NCBI GenBank assembly: GCA_016871055.1
Contig: VFZW01000018.1
Span: 1-36,579 of the forward strand
Direction of reading: 5' to 3'
Origin: Acidobacteriota bacterium
GTDB lineage: Bacteria; Acidobacteriota; Terriglobia; Bryobacterales; Bryobacteraceae
Length of the DNA: 36,579 nucleotides
Shown here: positions 88 through 11,308 of the stretch, piece by piece
Layout of the letters: every line of letters begins with the position of its first letter
Position numbering within the stretch: the first letter of the stretch is position 1
Translations under genes and position numbers: made by a program
The notes under the pieces: model-generated
Told to the model about the DNA's origin: nothing
Seen by the model: the letters and a program-made list of their open reading frames with translations, nothing else
Database searches by the model: none

Positions 88-2535
88 GTGAAAACTACTG
101 CTTATCGGCGGGGGAACTTCGGGCTAGACTCGTGTCTCAGATTTGGGGACAACTCCAATGCGTTCGACAAGAACCTGATCGGATTGGTCAGTCAGAAGAC
201 GATTCGGAGCGGGAGTGCGACCGGGACGATCCTTGCGGATGTCAAGAACTACTTTGACGAGGGAACAACTGCCGTACTGACAGGCATTGTCGGTTGGGAC
301 TGGCCGGTTGCGCCGACGAATAAAGGCAATTTGACGCGGGTGTCGCAGTGGCGCAATCTGCCGTCCGAGGCGTGGCTGGATACAAAGATCGAATACGATC
401 ATGCGGGAAATCCGACGAAGCGGATCGATGCGAAGAATCAGGAGACAATCGTGACGTTCGCGGCGTCGCCGTGCGCTGGTGGGTTCGTGAACATTTATGC
501 GTTTCCAACGAAGATCAAGAACCCGGCGCAGCACGAGGTGAACATCACCTATGACTGCTCGACGGGCAAACCGCTGACGATCAGCGATGCGAATTCGAAC
601 CTGACGACGGCTTCGTATGCCGGCGACGCACTCGACCGGCTGATGTCGATCACCTATCCGGACGGCGGGAGCAAGGGCTACAGCTACCAGGATTCGAGCA
701 ATACGATTACCGAAACCGTTGGATTGAACTCGTGCTCGGTGGCGAACATTTCGCGCACGACCGTTTATGACGGACTTGGCCGGGTAGTGTCGGCGAGCGT
801 CGACGATGGCGGCGGACTGATCACGACGACGACCGAGTTTGATGGACTCGGGAGGACGGTGCGCGCGCACGTTCCGAAGCGCGCGACCGACACTGTAGAC
901 GCGTGGACGGAGACGGAGTACGATTTTCTTGGCCGGCCGCTTAAGGTGTCCAGCGGGTGCGTGAGCACAACGACGGCGTGCTCAGCAGGCGGGACGAATA
1001 ATCAGCAGGCCACGACGACATCGTTCGTCTATTCGGTGCTGTCGACGACGACGACGGCGCCGGGATCCAAGCGGATGCAACATTTCAAGGACGGCTTCGG
1101 CCGTTTGGTGAAAGTGATCGAAGATCCGTTGGTTGTACCGAATCAGAGCCCCACGCCGCTGCAACTGGAAACGAGTTACACCAACGATCTGCTCGACCGG
1201 TTGACTGCAGTGACGCAGGGAACTCTGCCGCAACGTACATTCAGTTTCGACTCGCTAGGCCGGCTTTTGTCGACGACGCAACCGGAGAGCGGGACGACGA
1301 GCAACAGCTACGACAACAATGGCAACGTTTTGTCGCGCACCGATGCTCGCGGGTACATGGCGATCTCGGTCTACGACAGTTTGAATCGCGTGACGCGCAA
1401 AACGTACTCGACGACTCCGCAACCGTCGCAGGTGGCGGAGCCTTTTCATGTTTATCCGGACACTGTGAAAGCGGATTTCCTTTGGGACACGCGGTTTAAG
1501 GGGCAACTTTCGGGGACGGTGACGACATACGGCGGCGCCGCCGTGTCGCGGACGGAGTACTTGACGTTTGACGCGATGGGGCGGGTGACAAGCAGCATGC
1601 AGTCGACGGGCGGGACGGTGGCGAACTTTGGGTACACGTATAATAAGGCCGGGATGTTGGAGACGATGAGGTATCCGTCGGCGCGGGTGGTGACGAACTG
1701 CTACAACGCGGGCGGGAGTGTCAAGAAAATCAGCGGGGTGGCGGCTGGGGCGACGACGGTGTACGCGGATTCGGCATTGTATGCGTCGCATGGTGGATTG
1801 GCGTCGGTGACGGTGGGGCCGTCGTATCAGATGACGATGGGGTATAACACGCATCACCGGCAGTTGACGGCGATCGATGTGACGCGGAGTGTGGCGCAGG
1901 TGTTTAAGTCGTCGCTGTTCTATTGCGCGAACGAGATAGACGGGTGCCCGGAGAACAACGGGAACATCGTGCGGCAGAAGTCGCATGATGGGGCGATGGA
2001 GCGGACGCAGGATTTTTCGTATGATGCGCTGAACCGGTTGAAGACGGCTGGGGAGGTTGGGGGGTATAGCCAGACGTTCGATTACGACCGGTATGGGAAT
2101 CGGTGGATCTCGGCGGGGACGCAGGTTTATGGGGCATCGGTGCAGCCGATTGTGGCGGGGGATTATCAGGCGTCGACGAACCGGTTCACGAAGGCGGCGA
2201 ATACGATCAAGTACGATTTGGCGGGCAATGCGTGGAACGAGAACGGGGCGATTGCGAAGTACGATGGCGAGGGGCGGATGGTGGAGTCGACGTTTCCGTG
2301 GGGGACGGGGCCGGTGACCCGGAATTATCTTGCCTTGCTTGGCTCGGCGCAGATAGTAGCCCAGCGCCGACTCGGTGATCCCTCGCTGCCGGCAGAACTC
2401 GGCCCGCGTTCCCGGCCGGGCGTGGTAGCCGGCCACTACCTTCGCCACTTCCGCCGCCGTCAACCCTCGTGTTCCGTTTGCCATCCTTCCAGCCTCGCCC
2501 TAGGCGTAGCTTCCAGGCAAGGTGGAATGGCTTGA
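88..2535 (+). CDS. RHS/YD-repeat protein, 3'-truncated by an IS remnant
   Basis: This is an open reading frame from a GTG codon at 88 with no clear ribosome binding site, so the true N-terminus may lie upstream or be lost. The protein carries many YD-type repeats, for example YDHAGN, YDGLGR, FDSLGR, YDNNGN, YDSLNR, YDALNR, YDRYGN and YDLAGN. RHS/YD proteins form a large beta-cage at the cell surface, often as polymorphic toxins, with an RHS core box and a variable C-terminal domain. Neither is present here. RHS-like sequence stops after about residue 746 (near base 2325). The last 70 residues are the reverse strand of an IS66 tnpA-like fragment, and no RHS sequence resumes beyond it. Codons in the second half end in G far more often than in neighbouring genes, which tend to end in C. 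The gene is probably a pseudogene. Confidence 0.75.
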   Translation: MKTTAYRRGNFGLDSCLRFGDNSNAFDKNLIGLVSQKTIRSGSATGTILADVKNYFDEGTTAVLTGIVGWDWPVAPTNKGNLTRVSQWRNLPSEAWLDTKIEYDHAGNPTKRIDAKNQETIVTFAASPCAGGFVNIYAFPTKIKNPAQHEVNITYDCSTGKPLTISDANSNLTTASYAGDALDRLMSITYPDGGSKGYSYQDSSNTITETVGLNSCSVANISRTTVYDGLGRVVSASVDDGGGLITTTTEFDGLGRTVRAHVPKRATDTVDAWTETEYDFLGRPLKVSSGCVSTTTACSAGGTNNQQATTTSFVYSVLSTTTTAPGSKRMQHFKDGFGRLVKVIEDPLVVPNQSPTPLQLETSYTNDLLDRLTAVTQGTLPQRTFSFDSLGRLLSTTQPESGTTSNSYDNNGNVLSRTDARGYMAISVYDSLNRVTRKTYSTTPQPSQVAEPFHVYPDTVKADFLWDTRFKGQLSGTVTTYGGAAVSRTEYLTFDAMGRVTSSMQSTGGTVANFGYTYNKAGMLETMRYPSARVVTNCYNAGGSVKKISGVAAGATTVYADSALYASHGGLASVTVGPSYQMTMGYNTHHRQLTAIDVTRSVAQVFKSSLFYCANEIDGCPENNGNIVRQKSHDGAMERTQDFSYDALNRLKTAGEVGGYSQTFDYDRYGNRWISAGTQVYGASVQPIVAGDYQASTNRFTKAANTIKYDLAGNAWNENGAIAKYDGEGRMVESTFPWGTGPVTRNYLALLGSAQIVAQRRLGDPSLPAELGPRSRPGVVAGHYLRHFRRRQPSCSVCHPSSLALGVASRQGGMA
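2326..2484 (-). pseudogene. IS66 TnpA-like N-terminal fragment
   Basis: The frame starts with ATG at 2484 and reads MANGTRGLTAAEVAKVV, then a segment with FCRQRGITESALGYYLRR, which is the helix-turn-helix style of IS66 accessory proteins. After about 53 residues the frame runs into antisense RHS sequence and loses any similarity. A long overlapping minus-strand reading frame continues to 1255, but only its first 53 or so residues look like a real protein. It is a fragment and presumably without function. Confidence 0.65.
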
Positions 2536-2611: not shown

Positions 2612-4009
2612 TTATGACACGCTCTCCTCGATGATCCTCTTCACAACGCCAGCATCCGCATCGATCACCCTGCTGCGTTGCGGCAACGCTTCGATGCCGT
2701 CGAACTTCGATGGCCGCTCCGGCTCGCGTCCCAGCGCCTCTTGTATCGTCGCGGCGAACTTTGCCGGCAGCGCCGTTTCCAAACAAATTAGCGGCGTACT
2801 GACGGAACGCAACTCCATCCCCACTTTCAATCCATCCGCTGTATGCGGATCGACCACAACTCCATAACGCTCCCACGTCCGGCGAATCGTCGCCAGGCGG
2901 CCGGTGTGTGTGCTTGATCCGCTAACGAATCCGAAGCGCCGGGCGTCTGTGCCGCTCAAATCGAACGCCCCTTGCGCCCACAGCGACCTGATGCGCGCCG
3001 AGTCGCGCCCGACAAGATCGAACACGAATCGCTCAAAATTTGACGCTTTCGAAATATCCATCGACGGACTCGAAGTCTGCTGCGTCTCCGTCGTGCCGCG
3101 CGGACGGTAAATGCCCGTCCGAAAGAACTCATCAAGCACATCGTTTTCATTCGTCGCGAGTATCAATCGCCCAATCGGCAGGCCCATCATGCGCGCGATG
3201 TGCCCCGCGCAGATGTTGCCGAAGTTCCCCGATGGCACAGCGAAATCGACGGGTGCGCCGGCCCCGGGCGCCACCGCGAAGTAGCCTTTGAAGTAATAAA
3301 CAACCTGCGCCACAACGCGCGCCCAGTTAATCGAATTCACCGTGCCAATGCGATAGCGCCGCTTGAACTCGAGATCGTTCGACACCGCCTTCACAACGTC
3401 CTGGCAATCGTCGAACACGCCTCGCACCGCCAAATTGTGAATGTTCTCGTCCATCAGCGTGAACATCTGCGCGGTTTGAAACGCGCTCATTTTTCCATGC
3501 GGCGACAGCATGAACACACGGATGCCGCGCTTGCCGCGCATGGCGTATTCGGCCGACGATCCCGTGTCGCCGCTCGTCGCGCCGAGAACGTTTAACGACT
3601 CGCCGCGCTCCGCCAGCGCCCACTCAAACAGGTTGCCGAGCAACTGCATCGCCATGTCTTTAAACGCAAGCGTCGGCCCGTTCGACAACTCCAGCAAATG
3701 CACCCCGGGTTCGAGCGTTCGCACCGGCGTTATCTCTTCCGCGTTGCTGCCGTTCGAGTAAACTTCGGCCGTATAGGTCTTATCGATTAGCGCGCGCAGC
3801 ACGCCTTCCGGTACGTCGTCCGCGAAGAGGCGCAACACTGCGAACGCAAGCTCGCGATAGTTCATCGTGCGCATCGCGTCGAGGTCCGCCGCGCTCAACC
3901 GCGGATACTCCGCCGGCATCGCGAGGCCCCCGTCTTCCATCAACCCGCCCAACAGAATCTCCCGGAATCCGGCGCCCCGGTCTTCCCCCCGCGTGCTTAC
4001 ATATCGCAT
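2612..4009 (-). CDS. thrC: Threonine synthase
   Basis: Threonine synthase converts O-phosphohomoserine to threonine with pyridoxal phosphate in the cytoplasm, the last step of threonine synthesis. The 465-aa product begins MRYVSTRGED, typical of the family. The PLP lysine is K117 in the GPTLAFKDMA segment. LGATSGDTGSSA and VPSGNFGNICAG match the phosphate-binding and active-site loops, and TADGLK lies near the C-terminus. Length and layout fit the long (ThrC class II) form. The ATG start at 4009 lies 11 nt after the ankyrin gene's stop, so it is probably cotranscribed with that cassette. The upstream sequence shows only a weak GAG-type ribosome binding site. The functional identification is firm. 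Confidence 0.96.
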   Translation of the reverse strand: MRYVSTRGEDRGAGFREILLGGLMEDGGLAMPAEYPRLSAADLDAMRTMNYRELAFAVLRLFADDVPEGVLRALIDKTYTAEVYSNGSNAEEITPVRTLEPGVHLLELSNGPTLAFKDMAMQLLGNLFEWALAERGESLNVLGATSGDTGSSAEYAMRGKRGIRVFMLSPHGKMSAFQTAQMFTLMDENIHNLAVRGVFDDCQDVVKAVSNDLEFKRRYRIGTVNSINWARVVAQVVYYFKGYFAVAPGAGAPVDFAVPSGNFGNICAGHIARMMGLPIGRLILATNENDVLDEFFRTGIYRPRGTTETQQTSSPSMDISKASNFERFVFDLVGRDSARIRSLWAQGAFDLSGTDARRFGFVSGSSTHTGRLATIRRTWERYGVVVDPHTADGLKVGMELRSVSTPLICLETALPAKFAATIQEALGREPERPSKFDGIEALPQRSRVIDADAGVVKRIIEESVS

Positions 4010-4020
4010 GAACTCTCAGG

Positions 4021-5679
4021 CTAGCGCGCCGCCGACAACCGCCGCAAACAATCGGTGCCTGCTGTCCCGCGCACGATCTTCTTCAACTTCTCGACATCGC
4101 CATCGACGTTCTGTCTCTGAATCGCGTCGCGATACCGCTCCTGCTTGTCGGCCAAGTCGAACGGCGTCTCACCCATCGAGTTCTTCGCGTCCAGCGCCGC
4201 GCCCTGCGCGTGTAGATATTCGAGAATCTCCGGCTTACCTTGAATCGCCGCCAAGTGCAGGATCGATTGATCGCCGCGCGCCAGCGTGATCGCTTCGACA
4301 GGATCGGGAATCTTGTCCTGCGGATTCCACCGCGCGTTAATTGTTGCGCCCGATGCGATCATCTGCTTCACGACCGCGAGATCGCCCGCGAGCACCGCTA
4401 CCGAAAACGGAGTGTGCCCATCCTTCCGCAACTGGTTGACGTTGCCGCCGCGCGCCGCGAGCAACTTCAAGAGATCGACACTGCCCGAACTCGCCGCGAT
4501 ATGCATCGCCGACGATCCCGCCGGCGCCGGATTGATCCGCACATCGCCCGCCGGGCCGCCCGTTGGGAAAATCGTGCCCAGGTTCGGATCCGCGCCCGCA
4601 TCCAGCAACCTTTGCACGAATTCGAGCGTGTCGTTCAGTTCCAGCTTCAGGCCCTCTTCGTCATCGCCGCCCAATGCCAGCGCCGCCGCGGTTTGTCCGT
4701 ACGCACCGCGCTGCCGCGTACCCGTGCGCGCCGCCTTCGCGACAGCCAGCGCCGCTCCATGCAAGGGTGAGTAACCTGTGCCGTCAATCACCTTCACGGT
4801 AGCGCCGCGATCCAGCAACAACCGAGCCACGCGCAGATTTGGCGTGAATCGCTGCGAACTGCCCGCTGTCGCCGGCGCGCCGCGGCCCGGGATGAAAGCC
4901 GCTTTCGGAAGATCCCACTTGTACAGCGCGGTGAGCAGCGGCGTTGTGCCATCGGCCGCGGCCGTATTTACATCCGCGCCCGCGTCGAGCAAGATACGCA
5001 CCGATTCAAAATCGTTCTTCTGCACAGCGAAGTGGAGCGCGCTCAAGCCGCCCTTCTTCGCGATGTAGTCGCCATCGTTGTTCCACGGAATGCCAGTCTT
5101 ACCAAGCGTCACAGTCGTAGGCAAATAGTTCGTGTACTTCACATCCCATGCCTTCGTGATAGCGCGGATATCAGCGCCGGCCTGCACGAGCATCTGCACG
5201 GCTTCGCTATTGCCGGCGGCCCACATCAGAACGGTTTGTCCGAACTTCTTTTCGCGCACATTCACATTCGCGCCACTCGCAAGCAGGCTCTTCATGATAT
5301 CGACGCGACCCATTCGCGCGGCGATCATCAGCGGCGTCTCGCCGTTCTCGCGGCTCACGTTTGGATCGGCGCGATGTCTCAACAGCAGCGACGCAATCTC
5401 ACCCGAGCCATTCGTTATCGCTATCGCCAAAGGGCTGACGCCCGATTCGTTCGTCAAGTTCGGATCGGCGCCCGACCGTAACAACAACGTCGCTATTGAA
5501 ACGTTGCCTCGCATCGCGGCCCATGCCAATGCCGGAGTCCCGTCGTCGTCGCGCTCGTTTGCCTTCGCGCCCCCACGCAGCAGTTGCTCGGCCAGCGCGC
5601 GGTCGTCATTGCGCACGGCGTCGAGCAAGCCGCCGAACATCGATGCAGCCGCGATCGCGAATAGGAACAGCGTTCGCAT
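4021..5679 (-). CDS. Exported ankyrin-repeat protein
   Basis: The product is about 552 aa. A signal peptide (MRTLFLFAIAAASMFGG) is followed by about eleven ankyrin repeats of about 33 residues, with repeated motifs such as GADPN, TPLMIAA, ALHFA and LLDAGAD. Two longer insertions interrupt the array: about residues 175-210 (around KAWDVKYTNYLP) and about 250-275. Ankyrin repeats bind proteins; here they would do so in the periplasm. The ATG at 5679 overlaps the TGA of the DUF1552 gene (TGATG), with GGAG five bases upstream, so I prefer it to the GTG three bases earlier. It sits directly behind the DUF1592 and DUF1552 genes, an arrangement I know from Solibacter-type acidobacteria and planctomycetes. 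The partner is unknown. Confidence 0.9.
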   Translation of the reverse strand: MRTLFLFAIAAASMFGGLLDAVRNDDRALAEQLLRGGAKANERDDDGTPALAWAAMRGNVSIATLLLRSGADPNLTNESGVSPLAIAITNGSGEIASLLLRHRADPNVSRENGETPLMIAARMGRVDIMKSLLASGANVNVREKKFGQTVLMWAAGNSEAVQMLVQAGADIRAITKAWDVKYTNYLPTTVTLGKTGIPWNNDGDYIAKKGGLSALHFAVQKNDFESVRILLDAGADVNTAAADGTTPLLTALYKWDLPKAAFIPGRGAPATAGSSQRFTPNLRVARLLLDRGATVKVIDGTGYSPLHGAALAVAKAARTGTRQRGAYGQTAAALALGGDDEEGLKLELNDTLEFVQRLLDAGADPNLGTIFPTGGPAGDVRINPAPAGSSAMHIAASSGSVDLLKLLAARGGNVNQLRKDGHTPFSVAVLAGDLAVVKQMIASGATINARWNPQDKIPDPVEAITLARGDQSILHLAAIQGKPEILEYLHAQGAALDAKNSMGETPFDLADKQERYRDAIQRQNVDGDVEKLKKIVRGTAGTDCLRRLSAAR

Positions 5680-6974
5680 CACATCTCCAGCCGGTTGAAG
5701 CGCCCAGTGCTATCGCCCAGCTTCTCCATCGGTATGCCGACCTTTTCGAGCATCGTCAGATACAAATTCGACAGCGGCGTCTCATCGCCGGGCAGCGCGA
5801 GGTAGCGCCCATGCGCGACCCGCCCCGCCGCGCCGCCGGCGACGATAATCGGTAGGTCTCGCTGGCTGTGCGAAGTCGGCACGCTGAGGTTGCTGCCATA
5901 CATAATCAGTGAATGATCGAGCAGCGTTGAACTGCCTTCGCGCAGTGCATCGAGCTTCGACAGGAAGTACGCGAACAATTGCGACTGGTTAACGTTGACC
6001 TTCGCCAGTGCGTCGAGCTTTTCTTTCTCAAAGTTGTGATGCGAGATCTCGTGATGGCCCATCGAAATATTTAAGTGAGGGAAGTTGATCGACGTCGCCT
6101 CTCGCGCGTAGAGAAACGTCCAAACCCTCGTCAAATCGGCCTGCAACGCCAGCACCTGCAAATCGAACATCAGCTTCACGTGATCCGGCCAAGCGTCAGG
6201 CGCGCCGGCGGGCCGCGTCATCGGCGGCAACTCCGCGGGCCGCTTCTTCGACGCCACTTGAATGCGCCGTTCGACATCGCGAATCGATTCCACGTACTCA
6301 TCGAGCTTGCGTTTATCTCCCGCGCCCAACTGCCGTTTCAGCTCGCCAATACGTTCCAGCACACCGTCGAGACTGCTCTGGTCCGCTGCATTCCGCGCCG
6401 CTGCCGCTCCTGGATCGATGCGGCCGCCTTCGCCGAATAGCCGCTCAAAAACTTTTCGCGGATTGTATTCGAAAGGCAGCGGCGTCGTTGCCGTCTTAAA
6501 TACCGGCCCTACATGCGCCGCACCGCCGCCGTTGTTCTCCGTCGAGAGTTCCAGCGACGCAAACGGCGTCTCTTTTCCGAGTGTCTTCGCCGCGATCTGA
6601 TCGACCGAAATGCCGACATGCACCTTGCCCTTCGTCATCTCGACGCCGGTCAAAAACGACGCCAGCGCGCGGTCGTGAAATCCCGCCTTCGTTCGGTCAG
6701 GATCGGACGACAGTCCGCTAATCACCGTGAACTTGTTGCGATGCGGCGCAAGCGGCGCGAGCGCTTCGCTAAACGCATACGACGCGCCTTCGCCTTTGGG
6801 TTTCCAGCGTGCCTGATCGACGCCCAGCGGATACATGATGAAACCGAGCCGCCGTACGGGCGGAGGTTCCGGCGTCGCCGCCGCGGCCATCGCATCCAAT
6901 AACGGAAGGCCAATCGACACGCCCGCGCCGCGCAAAAGCGTTCGTCGAGCCAGCTTCTTTCTCGTGAGAAACAT
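5679..6974 (-). CDS. DUF1552 family protein, Tat-exported
   Basis: The product is 431 aa. The N-terminus has a twin-arginine signal, RRTLLRGAG at residues 10-18, followed by a hydrophobic stretch ending in AMAAAA. The body matches the DUF1552 family, including GFIMYPLGVD, GLSSDPDR, SVDQIAAKTLG, DEYVESIRDVERR and YGSNLSVPTSHS. The biochemical role of the family is not known to me. It is usually encoded next to a DUF1592 cytochrome-like protein, as here: its start lies 6 nt after the upstream gene's stop. Its stop overlaps the ankyrin gene's start. Tat export suggests that it folds, possibly with a cofactor, before crossing the membrane. Confidence 0.93.
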   Translation of the reverse strand: MFLTRKKLARRTLLRGAGVSIGLPLLDAMAAAATPEPPPVRRLGFIMYPLGVDQARWKPKGEGASYAFSEALAPLAPHRNKFTVISGLSSDPDRTKAGFHDRALASFLTGVEMTKGKVHVGISVDQIAAKTLGKETPFASLELSTENNGGGAAHVGPVFKTATTPLPFEYNPRKVFERLFGEGGRIDPGAAAARNAADQSSLDGVLERIGELKRQLGAGDKRKLDEYVESIRDVERRIQVASKKRPAELPPMTRPAGAPDAWPDHVKLMFDLQVLALQADLTRVWTFLYAREATSINFPHLNISMGHHEISHHNFEKEKLDALAKVNVNQSQLFAYFLSKLDALREGSSTLLDHSLIMYGSNLSVPTSHSQRDLPIIVAGGAAGRVAHGRYLALPGDETPLSNLYLTMLEKVGIPMEKLGDSTGRFNRLEM

Positions 6975-6980
6975 CGGTGA

Positions 6981-9233
6981 TCACTCCTGCTTCTGTCTCA
7001 TTCGGAACGGTACGCTTCGGGTAACGGCTGCGATCAGATCCTGAAAGCGGTACCCGCCTGCTTCAGTTTGGCGCAAGATCTCCCGCACCGCGGGTTGATC
7101 GCGCCCGTCAAGCTCACGTCCTACAGCATACGTCAGCAGCCGCTCGGCGGTAGCGTGCGCCAACTCATCGGTGCGCCCGGTCAACATGGTGCGCAGCCCT
7201 TGCGGGCCGGCGACGCGCTCTCCATTCGCCATTGTGCTTGACGCGTCGACCGGCGAACCTTCGTCCTGAGCTCGCCAGCGGCCTATGACGTCGTAGTTTT
7301 CCAGTGCGAACCCGAGTGGGTCGATGCGGTTGTGACAGGACGCGCAGCCCGGAATCGATCGATGTCTCTCGATCTGCTCGCGCGCCGTCAGTTTCTTCCC
7401 CTCGCGCAGACTCTCCTCCAACGCCGGCACATTTGCTGGCGGCGGTGGTGGTGGAGAGTTCAGCAAATTATCGAGAATCCACTTGCCGCGTAGGACTGGC
7501 GAGGTTCGAGCCGAATGTGAGGTCGCCAGCAAAACGCTTCCGTGCGTCAAAAGGCCGCCGCGTTGCGACTCGTCGCCGAGCGTCACACGCCGGAAGCCGG
7601 GACCAACAACACCAGGAATGCCATAGTGCGCGGCGAGCCGGTCATTCACGTACGTGTAATTCGCTCCGATCAAGTCGCCAAGTTTGCGATTCTCGCGCAG
7701 CAAGCTGCCGATGAACAAGCGCGTCTCCGTCGCGAACGTCTGCGTCAGGCCGCGATCATACGCCGGGTACAATTGCCTATCCACATCCACGGAATCGAGA
7801 CCACTCAACCCCAGCCACTGGGTCACGAAATTCCCCATCAAGGCAGACGACTTCTCATCCGCCAGCATGCGTCGCACTTGGCTATCCCACTGCTGACGCA
7901 AGCGTCCCGATGCGGCTGCATCAAGCAACTGGCCGTCGGGAATACTGCTCCACAAGAAGAACGACAACCGCGACGCCAATTCGAATTCTCGCAGCGGCTG
8001 TGGCGTTCCGGGTTTGCCTTGCCCGGAATCGAGCTCTAATCGGAAGAGAAAATCGGGCGCGAGCAAAATCTCTCGAATCGCCATTGCGATCGCGGGTTCA
8101 AAGTTCCGGGAATGCCGCGCGTACACTTTCAGAAACGGCGCGACATCCGCCGCGCTCACATCGCGCCGAAACGCTTTCCGGACCAGTGGTTTTAAGATCT
8201 GTTCCGCGCATGCGTCCGACGCCCTGCATATAAAGATTCGCGCCGAGCCCGCCGTGGCGTTGTACGGCCCCGCAATTTCGATTCGCCCCAGCGCCGGCGG
8301 CCCAGGCTGTCCGTCGAACGCCGCCTCACCCGCGGTCATGCCGCCGATCTCGAACAGCTTCACGCGTTTGCCATCCAGTCGGAACTCGATCGTCGGCCGC
8401 ACCGCCGTGCCGAGAACATCCAGCGGCCCACCCAACGACGCGCCGCCGATGCCGCTGACGTTCGATACTGGGCCTTCGCGCTCCGCGAATTCATCGGGAA
8501 ACGTCACGACGACGTTGTGTGAACCCGCACGTACGCCTGTCAGCCGAAACTTGAAAAACCGCACGCCTTCAAGCGGCGTCAAACTTTCTTTCACCAGAAA
8601 CGCTCGGAGATCGTAGTCGCCATCGCGAGGAAAGTAGTGCGTGACGCGAATGCCGCCTCGCGTGCCGATTGGCATCCCCTCGCCTTGCCAGGCAGCCTGT
8701 GTTGCCCTGGCGGGGAAGGTCTCGACGATTGGACTTGCATCGCCCGTGCCTGTCGCTAGTTCGCTCACGCGCCGCGCAACTTTCAAGTAACGCTCGAGCA
8801 GCAGCGGCGACATCGACAACGCATCGGCTATGTTGTCAAACCCGGCCGCCGATTGATCCTGCGGCAACTCATCCGCAAACGGCAAATTCAGGCCGAACAG
8901 ATCGCGCACGGCGTTTGTGTATTCGGTTCGATTCAAGCGGCGGATTACCGGGCGTCCCGCGTGCGGCAGCGCGCGGTCAAGGCGCGCCGTCACGCCTCGA
9001 ACATACGCCCGCGCCGCTGTGTGATCGGGCTTCGGCGCGCCAGCCGGTGGCATCTCGCCCGCGCGCACTCGCTTCACGGCCTTCTCCCAAACCACATCGT
9101 TGCTCGACAAACCGGTTAACACGAGCCCGCCCATCTTCGCGTTCGCGCTGTGGCAACTCACGCAGTACTTCGCCACGAACGGATCGTCTGCCGCTAGCAA
9201 TACACCGGCAAACAGGAGTGGGAGCAAACGCAT
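6981..9233 (-). CDS. DUF1592-family protein with c-type haem motifs
   Basis: The product is 750 aa with a signal peptide (MRLLPLLFAGVLLAA). An N-terminal cytochrome c-like segment has CVSCH at residues 24-28 and a likely distal Met in AGEMPPAG. Then follow DUF1587 (IRRLNRTEYTNAVRDLFG), a beta-rich middle part, DUF1595 (LVRKAFRRDV), DUF1592 (LDSGQGKP to ADEKSSALMG), DUF1588 with a second CASCH at residues 630-634 (CASCHNRIDPLGFALE) and C-terminal DUF1585 (LLTYAVGREL). This is the standard order in planctomycetes and acidobacteria. Two CxxCH motifs imply covalent haem and periplasmic redox chemistry, but the substrate is unknown. It is the first gene of a minus-strand run into DUF1552, ankyrin and thrC. 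Confidence 0.93.
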   Translation of the reverse strand: MRLLPLLFAGVLLAADDPFVAKYCVSCHSANAKMGGLVLTGLSSNDVVWEKAVKRVRAGEMPPAGAPKPDHTAARAYVRGVTARLDRALPHAGRPVIRRLNRTEYTNAVRDLFGLNLPFADELPQDQSAAGFDNIADALSMSPLLLERYLKVARRVSELATGTGDASPIVETFPARATQAAWQGEGMPIGTRGGIRVTHYFPRDGDYDLRAFLVKESLTPLEGVRFFKFRLTGVRAGSHNVVVTFPDEFAEREGPVSNVSGIGGASLGGPLDVLGTAVRPTIEFRLDGKRVKLFEIGGMTAGEAAFDGQPGPPALGRIEIAGPYNATAGSARIFICRASDACAEQILKPLVRKAFRRDVSAADVAPFLKVYARHSRNFEPAIAMAIREILLAPDFLFRLELDSGQGKPGTPQPLREFELASRLSFFLWSSIPDGQLLDAAASGRLRQQWDSQVRRMLADEKSSALMGNFVTQWLGLSGLDSVDVDRQLYPAYDRGLTQTFATETRLFIGSLLRENRKLGDLIGANYTYVNDRLAAHYGIPGVVGPGFRRVTLGDESQRGGLLTHGSVLLATSHSARTSPVLRGKWILDNLLNSPPPPPPANVPALEESLREGKKLTAREQIERHRSIPGCASCHNRIDPLGFALENYDVIGRWRAQDEGSPVDASSTMANGERVAGPQGLRTMLTGRTDELAHATAERLLTYAVGRELDGRDQPAVREILRQTEAGGYRFQDLIAAVTRSVPFRMRQKQE

Positions 9234-9276: not shown

Positions 9277-10188
9277 ATGCAGTTGGACCGCAGAACTCTG
9301 ATGCTTGCCGCCGGCGCTTCGGCCGCGGTTGCCGCGCTGCCGATCCCGATCATCGACAGCCACTTTCACATTTACGACCAAACGCGCCCGCAAGGTGCGC
9401 CGTACCCATTCACGCCCAACGCGCCGCCGTTTCTGCCGAAAGATTTTCGCGAGTCCGCAATCCCCCTAGGCATCGTAGGCGGAATCAAGGTAGAGGCCAG
9501 CCCGTGGGTCGAAGACAACCTCTGGGTGCTGATGATGATAGAAAGCGAGCCGATGATCGTGGGCATGATCGGAAATCTCGATCCGGTCAAGGAAGACTTC
9601 CGCGAACACCTCGACCGCTACCGGAAAAACAAGCTCTTTCTGGGCATTCGCTACGGCAACGTGTGGAAGGGCCAGGACCTCGTGACCGCGATCGGGCGCC
9701 CAAGCGTCATCGAGAATATGCGAGCTTTCGCCGAAACGGGCTTAACGCTGGAGGTCGCTAACCCGCGTCTCGATCTCATCGAGGCCACGCTGCGATTGAA
9801 AGACAAAGTGCCTGGCTTGCGCATCGTGCTTGGCCATTTGCAAGCGCTCGCGCTGCCAACACAGCCGGATGTACTAAGGGGTTACGAAAAAACATTGCGT
9901 GAGTTGAAGCAACGCGGCGCGTTTGTCAAGGTGTCCGGCCTGTACCGGCCGCGCAACGCCCCCAGCGGCGCTTTTAATCCGGCCGACTACAAGCCCGTTA
10001 TGGACTTCATCTGGGACATCTTCGGCGAAGACCTTCTCGTTTACGCTGGGCGGAACAAGGCCGCGCTCGATGTCCTGCACGATTACTTCGCCGCCAAGAG
10101 CCCCACAGCCGCCGAAAAATATTTTTGGAAGAACTCGGTGAAGGCGTTCCACTGGATTCAGCGAGACCCGAAGCAGCCGCGATTGTGA
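9277..10188 (+). CDS. Amidohydrolase_2-like exported protein
   Basis: The product is 303 aa. The N-terminus (LDRRTLMLAAGASAAVAALP) looks like a Tat signal. The TIM-barrel metal motif of the amidohydrolase superfamily follows at once: IIDSHFHIYD with His29 and His31. GIRYGN, EVANPRL and IVLGHLQ match later strands of fuconolactonase/dicarboxylate-lactone hydrolase-like relatives. The last strand normally reads FGSDWP or YGSNWP; here it reads VYAGRNKAALD, so the usual acidic residue and Trp-Pro are absent. The domain is otherwise complete to the C-terminus. Lactone hydrolysis is a guess from the family, and the missing motif makes activity doubtful. It is divergent from the DUF1592 gene and convergent with the HD gene. 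Confidence 0.8.
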   Translation: MQLDRRTLMLAAGASAAVAALPIPIIDSHFHIYDQTRPQGAPYPFTPNAPPFLPKDFRESAIPLGIVGGIKVEASPWVEDNLWVLMMIESEPMIVGMIGNLDPVKEDFREHLDRYRKNKLFLGIRYGNVWKGQDLVTAIGRPSVIENMRAFAETGLTLEVANPRLDLIEATLRLKDKVPGLRIVLGHLQALALPTQPDVLRGYEKTLRELKQRGAFVKVSGLYRPRNAPSGAFNPADYKPVMDFIWDIFGEDLLVYAGRNKAALDVLHDYFAAKSPTAAEKYFWKNSVKAFHWIQRDPKQPRL

Positions 10189-10205: not shown

Positions 10206-10727
10206 CTACTCGCCATGCAGAGCCCGCGCCGCGGAATACTCCGCCATCAGTGCCTCATTCGGCGACGGCAAACTACTGACGACTCGATGCGCCCACGCCA
10301 CGTATTCGATACGCCGCTCGACCGACCAACCTGCCGGCGGCGCCGAGTGAATCGATCGCAGATTCGAGATCTTGTCCGCGGTCTTTATTGCGCCAATCTC
10401 GGCGCTCGCCGCGCGTGCATGTTCCACCTGTTTTTCCTTCCGGACCTGCTTCGGCAGCGACTTGTCGTCGGTCACCGCCGCCACCAGATCGGCAATTCGA
10501 GGCCCGAACTCCACTTCCAGTTCGTCGTAGGTCACGCCCGTGTCCTCGATTGTGTCGTGCAGCAGTCCGGCCGCCACGACCTCGGCGTCGCATCCAGCCT
10601 GCGCTAACAGAAATGCGACTTCGATTACGTGATTCACGTACGGTGTCGCCTCTTCATCCTTACGGCGCTGTCTCCTATGGGCGCGCGCAGCGAAGTCCGC
10701 CGCCTTCATGATCAGGAGGGTGCTCAT
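10206..10727 (-). CDS. HD-domain (p)ppGpp hydrolase-like protein
   Basis: The product is a 173-aa stand-alone HD domain resembling the hydrolase half of SpoT/Rel and the small MESH1-type hydrolases. It has an RRKDEEATPYVNHVIEVA segment, then GLLHDTIEDTGVTYDEL (His57-Asp58, Glu61-Asp62) and IKTADKISNLRS. No synthetase, TGS or ACT domain is present. The family removes the 3'-pyrophosphate of ppGpp with Mn2+; other nucleotides are possible substrates. The reading frame is open further upstream to 10817, but MSTLLIMKAADFAARAH at 10727 is the natural start. There is no ribosome binding site, and an AT-rich -10-like TATTAT/TTATAC lies 11-13 nt before it. It converges on the amidohydrolase gene with a 17-nt gap. 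Confidence 0.85.
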   Translation of the reverse strand: MSTLLIMKAADFAARAHRRQRRKDEEATPYVNHVIEVAFLLAQAGCDAEVVAAGLLHDTIEDTGVTYDELEVEFGPRIADLVAAVTDDKSLPKQVRKEKQVEHARAASAEIGAIKTADKISNLRSIHSAPPAGWSVERRIEYVAWAHRVVSSLPSPNEALMAEYSAARALHGE

Positions 10728-10837
10728 GGGACTTAATGGTATAATAAAACCATGAGCCGTTTGTAAATTTCGTTTATACCTTCTAGTTTTCCGGACATCG
10801 CGTCCAAGCCAATGCAACCAACATCGAGGTACAAGTT
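10728..10837. promoter_or_regulatory. AT-rich divergent promoter region
   Basis: This 110-bp gap is AT-rich. On the plus strand it holds TATAAT (10740-10745) and a TTGTAA (10761-10766) with TAGTTT 17 nt later. On the minus strand it holds TTTACA and TATTAT/TTATAC in front of the HD gene. These are candidates only, but transcription is probably driven both ways from here. A four-codon ATG frame at 10752 (stop 10764-10766) follows the plus-strand TATAAT by 6 nt. Confidence 0.4.
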
Positions 10838-11308
10838 TTGAAACGATGGATCGCTAAAGGTCTCGTCTTGTCGTCTGTCTTCTTTTCCCCAGCTGTAAAT
10901 TCCACCGCCGAAGTGATCGAGGACAGGAACATTTCCAGGGACTCCAGGCTCCAAAGAATCAGGAACTTCTTCAACCGGCAGAAATGCCCGGTCGAGAAGT
11001 ACGCAGAGGAGTTTATTATCGCGGCCGACAATAACAAGCTAGACTGGCGGCTGCTGCCCAGCATTGCACTCGTAGAGTCGTCGGGAGGCAAGGTCTATCG
11101 AAACAACAACGTTTTCGGCTGGAGTTCCTGCCGTCGCCGTTTCCCGAGCGTCAAGGCAGGCATCCACGCCGTTGCCGAAAGGCTCGCAAACGCGCCGCAG
11201 TACCGGGACAAGGATCTCGACTCGATCCTCAAGACATACAACTCCCGGCCGATCTATAGCAAGACCGTCAAGCGCGTCATGATTCAATTGTCGGCCGAGC
11301 CGATCTAA
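10838..11308 (+). CDS. Secreted lysozyme-fold (glucosaminidase/transglycosylase-like) protein
   Basis: The product is 156 aa. It starts with TTG at 10838, supported by GAGG at 10826-10829 eight bases upstream and by the absence of an in-frame ATG or GTG. A signal peptide (MKRWIAKGLVLSSVFFSPAVNS) precedes a compact lysozyme-like domain: LDWRLLPSIALVESSGGKVY, with Glu80 as the likely catalytic acid, then NNNVFGWSS and SVKAGIHAVAERLA. This pattern is shared by soluble lytic transglycosylases and endo-beta-N-acetylglucosaminidases, so peptidoglycan cleavage in the periplasm is likely. The exact bond is not predictable. Its stop overlaps the end of the 48-aa gene on the opposite strand by four bases. 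Confidence 0.8.
   Translation: MKRWIAKGLVLSSVFFSPAVNSTAEVIEDRNISRDSRLQRIRNFFNRQKCPVEKYAEEFIIAADNNKLDWRLLPSIALVESSGGKVYRNNNVFGWSSCRRRFPSVKAGIHAVAERLANAPQYRDKDLDSILKTYNSRPIYSKTVKRVMIQLSAEPI

Follow-up and report, generated by a model that had tools for sequence, protein, structure and literature searches.

The contig VFZW01000018.1 of an Acidobacteriota bacterium of the family Bryobacteraceae (GenBank assembly GCA_016871055.1), referred to here as the window (the whole stretch of 36,579 nucleotides that was analysed), carries on its minus strand three genes arranged head to tail which encode a DUF1592-type cytochrome, a DUF1552 (HXXSHH) protein and an ankyrin protein. These three genes very probably form one functional unit whose products work together, with the ankyrin gene marking one clade of the DUF1552 family. 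For the nature of this unit we propose, with a probability of roughly 0.45, an exported redox metallo-unit that is related in parts to the Cbp2D protein of Cellvibrio japonicus and has the ankyrin protein as a dedicated partner. The genes, in the order of transcription, are as follows.

6981 to 9233, minus strand: first gene, encoding an exported di-haem c-type protein of the DUF1592 type, 750 amino acids (Pfam, alignment and model).
5679 to 6974, minus strand: second gene, encoding an HXXSHH/DUF1552 protein of the twin-arginine translocation (Tat) type, 431 amino acids, with an alkaline-phosphatase-superfamily fold (Pfam and model).
4021 to 5679, minus strand: third gene, encoding an exported ankyrin protein of about 552 amino acids (ankyrin E value of 5e-61; ATG at 5679).

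A first-pass annotation made from the sequence had described three adjacent and overlapping genes with exported products at this place, and its positions and families were borne out, on the minus strand, by the open reading frames (ORFs) and by Pfam. The overlap consists of a single base shared by the DUF1552 stop codon and the ankyrin ATG (TGATG), which makes translational coupling of these two genes very probable, while 6 bp separate the DUF1592-type gene from the DUF1552 gene. The listed ankyrin ORF begins at an alternative GTG at 5682. All three products do look exported, with a twin-arginine signal on the DUF1552 protein and a hydrophobic start on the ankyrin protein.

Linkage was first considered within the genome of the window itself (7.1 Mb), which contained 23 HXXSHH, 75 DUF1501 and 105 sulfatase-family matches. 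A DUF1592-type gene adjoined 22 of the 23 HXXSHH genes, that of the window included, and the exception (L031) begins at a contig end. An ankyrin gene was directly downstream in five copies, again including that of the window; a single branch of the DUF1552 tree (support 96/94) separated these five from the rest, and four of the five, those for which a DUF1592 gene was available, were likewise set apart in the DUF1592 tree (100/100). With DUF1501 as the control, the association exceeded chance: an ankyrin match was present within 1.5 kb of 5/23 HXXSHH genes versus 1/75 DUF1501 genes, and the sole match near DUF1501 came from an HXXSHH-linked ankyrin gene. Of the 24 ankyrin matches, 21 entered this control, the remaining ones being further repeats within the same genes. 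As separate observations, the genome exhibits a strong expansion of alkaline-phosphatase-fold families, and one of its HXXSHH trios (L030) has a DUF1501 gene (C2:42724-43941) immediately past its ankyrin gene, as one also follows the trio at L102 (L102:7589-9004).

Among 41 genomes, including that of the window, orthologues of the window DUF1552 protein were distinguished by 72 to 98% identity, versus at most 49% for paralogues. The first-pass annotation had made much depend on whether the ankyrin gene is conserved beside the pair in other genomes, and it was found downstream at 23/23 orthologous loci examined (L070-L091, L093). The complete trio was present at each of the 19 orthologous loci fetched, as regions of approximately 5 to 14 kb. 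One genome (G007) had three pieces on contigs C64, C222 and C601 that were 97 to 98% identical to the window DUF1552, reflecting either a strain mixture or assembly duplicates, and in another (G001, L093) the orthologous DUF1552 gene was broken into two overlapping frames.

How often the three families are adjacent was then surveyed, as the same annotation had suggested, using one genome per species and a profile of eight DUF1552 proteins; the results below are for the best 80 of 585 confirmed loci. By record title, these comprised 57 Acidobacteria-type, 16 Verrucomicrobia, 3 Planctomycetes, 2 Proteobacteria, 1 Gemmatimonadetes and 1 Acidimicrobiia loci, so that the recurrence claimed for Solibacter-type acidobacteria and planctomycetes proved true and extended to Verrucomicrobia/Opitutae, Gemmatimonadetes, Pseudohongiella and others. 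In this set, which leans towards the branch of the window, a DUF1592-type gene was upstream at 78/80 loci, the other two being contig ends. At the 72 of the 80 loci whose downstream flank exceeded 800 bp, an ankyrin gene was downstream on the same strand at 67, upstream at 4 and not found at 1 (L129, titled Planctomycetia). The figure of 67/72 is a reading of the rows; a strict script gave 64/80, missing five loci with long phantom frames and one with the gene at +1255.

Since the 80-locus set is biased to the branch of the window, all HXXSHH copies of whole genomes were also counted. Among the ankyrin matches listed, the 86 HXXSHH copies of eight genomes had an ankyrin gene downstream in 31 cases and upstream in 14, and 47 of the 64 ankyrin genes counted from these matches had an HXXSHH gene no more than 6 kb away. 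The eight genomes were chosen for holding a match in the first scan and about 70 of 278 ankyrin matches were used, so that the numbers of copies without an ankyrin gene are upper bounds. Of 30 genomes drawn from the phylum without selection, six had HXXSHH genes, the window's own included, and the nine copies from the other genomes had an ankyrin gene downstream in two cases and upstream in one (L214). The ankyrin gene was accordingly rejected as a general feature of the DUF1592-DUF1552 pair, with 18/23 copies in the window's genome and 7/9 copies in the unselected draw lacking it (1.5-kb flank; the ankyrin gene of L214 lies upstream).

The restriction of the ankyrin gene became clear in a DUF1552 tree of 96 rows, drawn from the genome of the window, every usable copy on one complete chromosome, and other sources. 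All 50 ankyrin-linked rows fell into one clade of 55 rows (Shimodaira-Hasegawa-like approximate likelihood ratio test, 95), together with four unlinked rows and one contig edge (L182), and outside the clade 0/41 rows were linked. The ankyrin label changed 5 times on the tree against a mean of 31.7 for shuffled labels, with 0/500 shuffles as low, and the association of clade and ankyrin gene gave a Fisher p of about 1e-22 when relatedness was ignored. L275 was labelled as unlinked, since the ankyrin gene near it is part of the neighbouring set, and the tree omits about 20 of the 86 rows, L263 (a region of genome G042 in which no DUF1552 was found) and L279 (a 57-bit partial match). A tree of 62 rows with bootstraps supported the same clade at 96/96, with 22/24 clade rows linked before L214 and L182 were resolved.

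The complete chromosome (G042, OY282382; Vicinamibacterales) had 40 HXXSHH matches and 31 complete trios, which were diverged and scattered. In these sets, the ankyrin gene was downstream in 20, divergent upstream in 7 and upstream on the same strand in 4. The correlations of distances across the 31 paralogous sets were 0.74 for ankyrin and DUF1552, 0.79 for ankyrin and DUF1592, and 0.81 for DUF1552 and DUF1592, with 0/2000 permutations as high; divergence of the ankyrin protein thus tracks that of the pair nearly as well as the two members of the pair track each other. These 31 trios also offer a natural set for studies of substrate specificity. If the ankyrin protein were a passive passenger kept by operon inheritance alone, the linked copies would be found in one clade, as they were. 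We regard this as very improbable, because the link has outlasted reshuffling of gene order and strand, through which a mere passenger is not expected to stay linked, and is shared by several phyla; the near-complete retention, the close spacing in many loci and a co-divergence that almost matches that of the pair itself also argue against it.

The first gene encodes domains in the Pfam order PSD3-PSD5-PSD4-PSCyt3-PSD2 (DUF1587/1595/1592/1588/1585), each above the cut-off, and the same five-domain order was found in 10/10 homologues scanned. An N-terminal PSCyt1/cbb3 cytochrome match was below threshold in the window protein (20.4 versus a cut-off of 22 bits), although the CxxCH motif is present, and PSCyt1 was above the cut-off in 6 of the 10 homologues. 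The two CxxCH motifs reported by the first-pass annotation are both there, at residues 24-28 and 630-634, and are conserved across 68 sequences. The features of this protein are as follows.

9150 to 9164, minus strand: haem-c motif 1, CVSCH, residues 24-28; Cys24, Cys27 and His28 at least 90% conserved in the 68 sequences.
7332 to 7346, minus strand: haem-c motif 2, CASCH, residues 630-634, in PSCyt3; Cys630, Cys633 and His634 invariant in the 68 sequences.
8250 to 8744, minus strand: internal beta jelly roll (residues 164-328), closest to the solved folds of CBM35/CBM36/CBM6 (carbohydrate-binding modules).

The model of this protein (predicted template modelling score [pTM] of 0.86) was mainly helical apart from the beta jelly roll at residues 164-328. 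Structure comparison of the jelly roll gave a modest best match (Z of 8.1, root mean square deviation of 3.1, 106 residues). Foldseek with the whole model returned no match at an E value of 0.001 or better, and a sequence search of solved structures returned only generic cytochrome c, for the N terminus. Pfam gave no match to CBM2 or YceI in the window protein.

The second gene matched the HXXSHH profile (PF07586, DUF1552) with 283 bits against a cut-off of 30, and its AlphaFold model had a mean predicted local distance difference test score of 80 and a pTM of 0.77. VIA-align placed the model in the alkaline-phosphatase superfamily (Z of 17.1 over 245 residues at 3.5 A); compared with 683 chains, Z was at least 8 for 471, and the fold covers residues 36-431. 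The ten best Foldseek matches were phosphatases, sulfatases, lipoteichoic-acid synthase, phosphonate hydrolase and similar proteins (best E value of 1.9e-4), while the sequence search of solved structures gave no credible match for this protein. The positions of interest are as follows.

6942 to 6947, minus strand: twin arginine of the Tat-type signal, residues 10-11; R10 and R11 in 94/94 rows with letters there.
6675 to 6677, minus strand: His100, where the sequence register puts the nucleophile of sulfatases; 95/95 rows (register from profile alignment and motif spacing).
6036 to 6053, minus strand: HXXSHH motif, His308-His313 (H308-E-I-S-H312-H313); His308 in 91/94 rows with letters, His312 in 95/95.
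5868 to 5870, minus strand: His369; 93/94 rows with letters.

In sulfatases, the Cys of the motif C-x-P-x-R-x-x-L-x-T-G is the nucleophile and is located at the start of a helix (Cys78, with Thr87 and Gly88, in our sulfatase alignment). In the DUF1552 protein, H-D-R-A-L-A-S-F-L-T-G keeps this spacing (His100, Thr109, Gly110), and residue 100 is at the start of a helix in its model. The same register puts Gly51-Val52 where sulfatases have Asp-Asp after strand 1, with Gly51 present in 95/95 rows. The hhalign comparisons of DUF1552 with sulfatases and DUF1501 were weak and were used only alongside the fold result. With this reserve, the alignments suggest that the Cys/Ser/Thr nucleophile and the strand-1 Asp ligands of sulfatases and alkaline phosphatases are absent from DUF1552. 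The zinc of Escherichia coli alkaline phosphatase is bound via a D-x-x-x-H motif, to which His308-x-x-x-His312 would presumably correspond. We read DUF1552 as a hydrolase fold with a histidine-rebuilt centre, which most likely holds a metal. Separately, a Cys pair that is otherwise kept in more than 90% of the HXXSHH family was lost in 20/20 sequences of the orthologue group of the window.

The same residues could be read in another way, with HXXSHH as a hydrolase or transferase in which His100 is the covalent nucleophile (forming phospho- or sulfo-histidine) at a zinc-type site, the cytochrome acting in another step such as oxidation of the product and the ankyrin protein docking. The fold family is overwhelmingly hydrolytic, His100 does occupy the sequence position of the nucleophile, and the 105 sulfatase-family matches in the genome make sulfated or phosphorylated substrates plausible. 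We nevertheless judge this explanation unlikely, as the same register leaves no acidic ligands after strand 1 (Gly51-Val52 in place of Asp-Asp) and the near-constant pairing with a di-haem protein would be odd for a plain hydrolase.

For the third gene, the alignment had Arg122, Gln148, Trp153 and His307 among its invariant positions (67/67), indicating that these proteins are one family and that the window protein is not a random ankyrin protein. Its N terminus was hydrophobic by eye, and 48/69 homologues had such a terminus by a crude rule. Fusions of DUF1552 and ankyrin genes, suspected from very long frames at four loci (L115, L138, L151, L171), were discarded, as no frame has both families. 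Among open-licence PMC papers, we found none linking ankyrin proteins to the PSCyt/PSD or DUF1552 families. Instead of being a subunit, the ankyrin protein might serve one clade as a biogenesis factor, delivering haem or metal or assisting folding in the way of Cj1386 for catalase. Passages in PMC10294975 on catalase-adjacent ankyrin proteins propose that they promote heme binding or stabilise the enzyme. A dedicated chaperone would give rise to co-divergence too. The window ankyrin protein has a single Cys, however, and no haem ligand stands out; moreover, the haem concerned is haem c, for which Ccm or Ccs is the usual attachment machinery. On balance, we find a biogenesis role distinctly unlikely.

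For the exported redox metallo-unit, we envisage the following mechanism. The jelly roll of the DUF1592-type di-haem cytochrome c would position the unit on its substrate, and the haems would move electrons. The HXXSHH protein would fold in the cytoplasm and exit by the Tat pathway; with its hydrolytic nucleophile and first acidic metal ligands replaced, His100, His308, His312 and His369 may hold a metal that acts on the substrate, for which the haems would supply or accept electrons. The ankyrin protein would be a non-catalytic partner that docks on the pair and stabilises or tethers it, as ankyrin proteins do for neighbouring catalases. This mechanism builds on the observed linkage, clade restriction, co-divergence, haem and His motifs and predicted fold, to which a putative physical complex, the metal, the redox role and a carbohydrate or similar substrate would be added. 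The first-pass annotation had suggested a periplasmic redox complex with the ankyrin protein as scaffold. Linkage despite rearranged gene order, clade restriction and co-divergence make the case for one functional unit far stronger than that annotation could have judged. Such a complex is plausible, given two haem-c motifs in one subunit, with the qualification that the DUF1552 subunit has an alkaline-phosphatase fold and is not of a known redox family; a scaffold role is reasonable by analogy with the ankyrin-catalase precedents. Its statement that no substrate is known is still true for the trio.

Several results weigh against the proposed mechanism. The Foldseek TM-scores (template modelling) of the ten best DUF1552 matches, headed by that at an E value of 1.9e-4, were only 0.33 to 0.43 (query-normalised), and the hhalign alignment in which His100 is paired with the Cys of sulfatases had an E value of 0.066 and a probability of 0.8%, which is weak alone. 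The meeting of His100, His308, His312 and His369 in one site is a putative placement from sequence. The jelly-roll Z of about 8 is of a size that the tool describes as common, and Pfam found no CBM in 11 DUF1592-type proteins (that of the window and ten homologues). Because 18/23 copies in the window's genome and four clade members are without it, the family as a whole can do without the ankyrin protein. A search for a conserved fourth gene at the 80 loci (61 downstream and 58 upstream ORFs, chosen by a simple script and not by a gene caller) found no family at 10% or more. The commonest upstream matches were PQQ_2 in 4/58, Beta-prop_ACSF4 in 3/58, and PQQ, GSDH, 3-keto-disaccharide hydrolase, GFO/IDH/MocA and cytochrome c in 2/58 each, so the upstream neighbours lean to sugar oxidation, nothing more.

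A bolder formulation is that alkaline-phosphatase-fold hydrolases have turned into His-only redox metalloenzymes fed by cytochromes, the ankyrin protein being the third subunit in one multi-phylum clade; the trio would then be an unnamed three-part exported oxidoreductase, with more than 30 paralogues per genome possible. We consider this formulation rather doubtful. If the redox reading is true, the trio would represent a widespread new class of environmental oxidation chemistry in soils and lakes. Acidobacteria, Planctomycetes and Verrucomicrobia have strongly amplified the PSCyt/PSD and DUF1552/DUF1501 families, to which no function is assigned, and with one clade defined as a three-component unit and its central protein predicted to have a sulfatase-type fold with a His at the nucleophile position, the question of their function becomes directly testable.

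The trio is flanked by two genes that lie outside the unit.

2612 to 4009, minus strand: thrC, an incidental neighbour, 11 bp from the trio.
9277 to 10188, plus strand: divergent amidohydrolase with a Tat-like start, beside the trio in 6/19 orthologous loci.

The description of the trio as next to thrC holds literally, by distance and strand, and fails as to conservation and meaning: thrC was rejected as a functional neighbour, being absent from 19/19 orthologous loci fetched, several of which (such as L284 and L302) are too short for certainty on that side. As the trio was present at 19/19 of these loci, thrC at 0/19 and the amidohydrolase at 6/19, the unit consists of exactly three genes. 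Elsewhere in the window, an Rhs/YD-repeat-like protein (88-2535, plus strand) has a C terminus that looks broken by eye, and an antisense ORF (1255-2484, minus strand) starts like a short transposase OrfA, also by eye, suggesting a mobile element in or beside the Rhs-like gene. An HD_4 domain hydrolase (10206-10817, minus strand) and a weak glucosaminidase match (10838-11308, plus strand) are unrelated to the trio.

Among known systems, the sulfatase/alkaline phosphatase superfamily shares with DUF1552 the fold and the spacing from the nucleophile position to T-G. The DUF1552 protein differs in having His at that position, no Asp-Asp after strand 1 and the HXXSHH motif. DUF1501 proteins, which are the partners of PSCyt2 proteins, gave a weak profile match to the C-terminal part of HXXSHH (E value of 0.0016), and in the DUF1501 alignment His134 has the same spacing before T-G (to Gly144). 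These alignments suggest that the replacement of the nucleophile by His may be common to both families. DUF1501 is nevertheless a separate Pfam family, and its 75 matches in the window's genome were practically never beside an ankyrin gene. The ankyrin proteins in AnkB-KatB, Cj1386-KatA and similar pairs support a haem enzyme and several are encoded beside it, according to the relevant passages of PMC10294975; the window ankyrin gene is likewise beside a haem-protein gene and co-inherited with it. The partners of AnkB and Cj1386 are catalases, whereas here they are a di-haem PSD cytochrome and an alkaline-phosphatase-fold protein.

Cbp2D of C. japonicus is the closest experimentally studied protein that we can point to. 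Passages of PMC8981238 describe it as CBM2 and X158 joined to three further parts, namely X183 (a small cytochrome), DUF1587 and X132 (with CxxCH). According to parts of PMC12542752, X183 slowly reduced lytic polysaccharide monooxygenases (LPMOs) in vitro, and deletion impaired growth on insoluble cellulose. The window protein, like Cbp2D-type proteins, has DUF1587 and two single-CxxCH regions; the likeness comprises DUF1587, a small cytochrome c domain (below threshold in the window protein), a C-terminal CxxCH domain and secretion, Cbp2D itself having the cellulose-growth phenotype. Cbp2D in addition has CBM2, FN3 and X158/YceI, where the window protein has a jelly roll without family assignment, and the passages on Cbp2D do not mention an HXXSHH or ankyrin partner. 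The trio might, by this comparison, be an electron source for LPMO-like oxidative polysaccharide enzymes, as proposed for Cbp2D, with HXXSHH in a structural role. Cbp2D has the same kind of parts and, in the passages of PMC8981238 and PMC12542752, is needed for growth on cellulose, yet results for two Teredinibacter turnerae relatives appear inconsistent with a role as LPMO donor in the relevant part of PMC10916295. In addition, the likeness to Cbp2D is set by named domains only and the invariant His cluster speaks against a merely structural HXXSHH protein, making a donor role of this kind improbable in our view.

The closest relatives of the trio are the PSCyt3/PSD-HXXSHH pairs of Planctomycetes and Verrucomicrobia, which have the same families and the same adjacency as the window. 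Passages of PMC5615132 report that PSCyt3 genes are usually beside a family of unknown genes, for which carbohydrate chemistry was guessed; this family would be DUF1552. The main text of that paper mentions ankyrin zero times, whereas here the ankyrin gene marks one clade. The trio is best filed as a three-part version of the known PSCyt3/PSD-HXXSHH pair.

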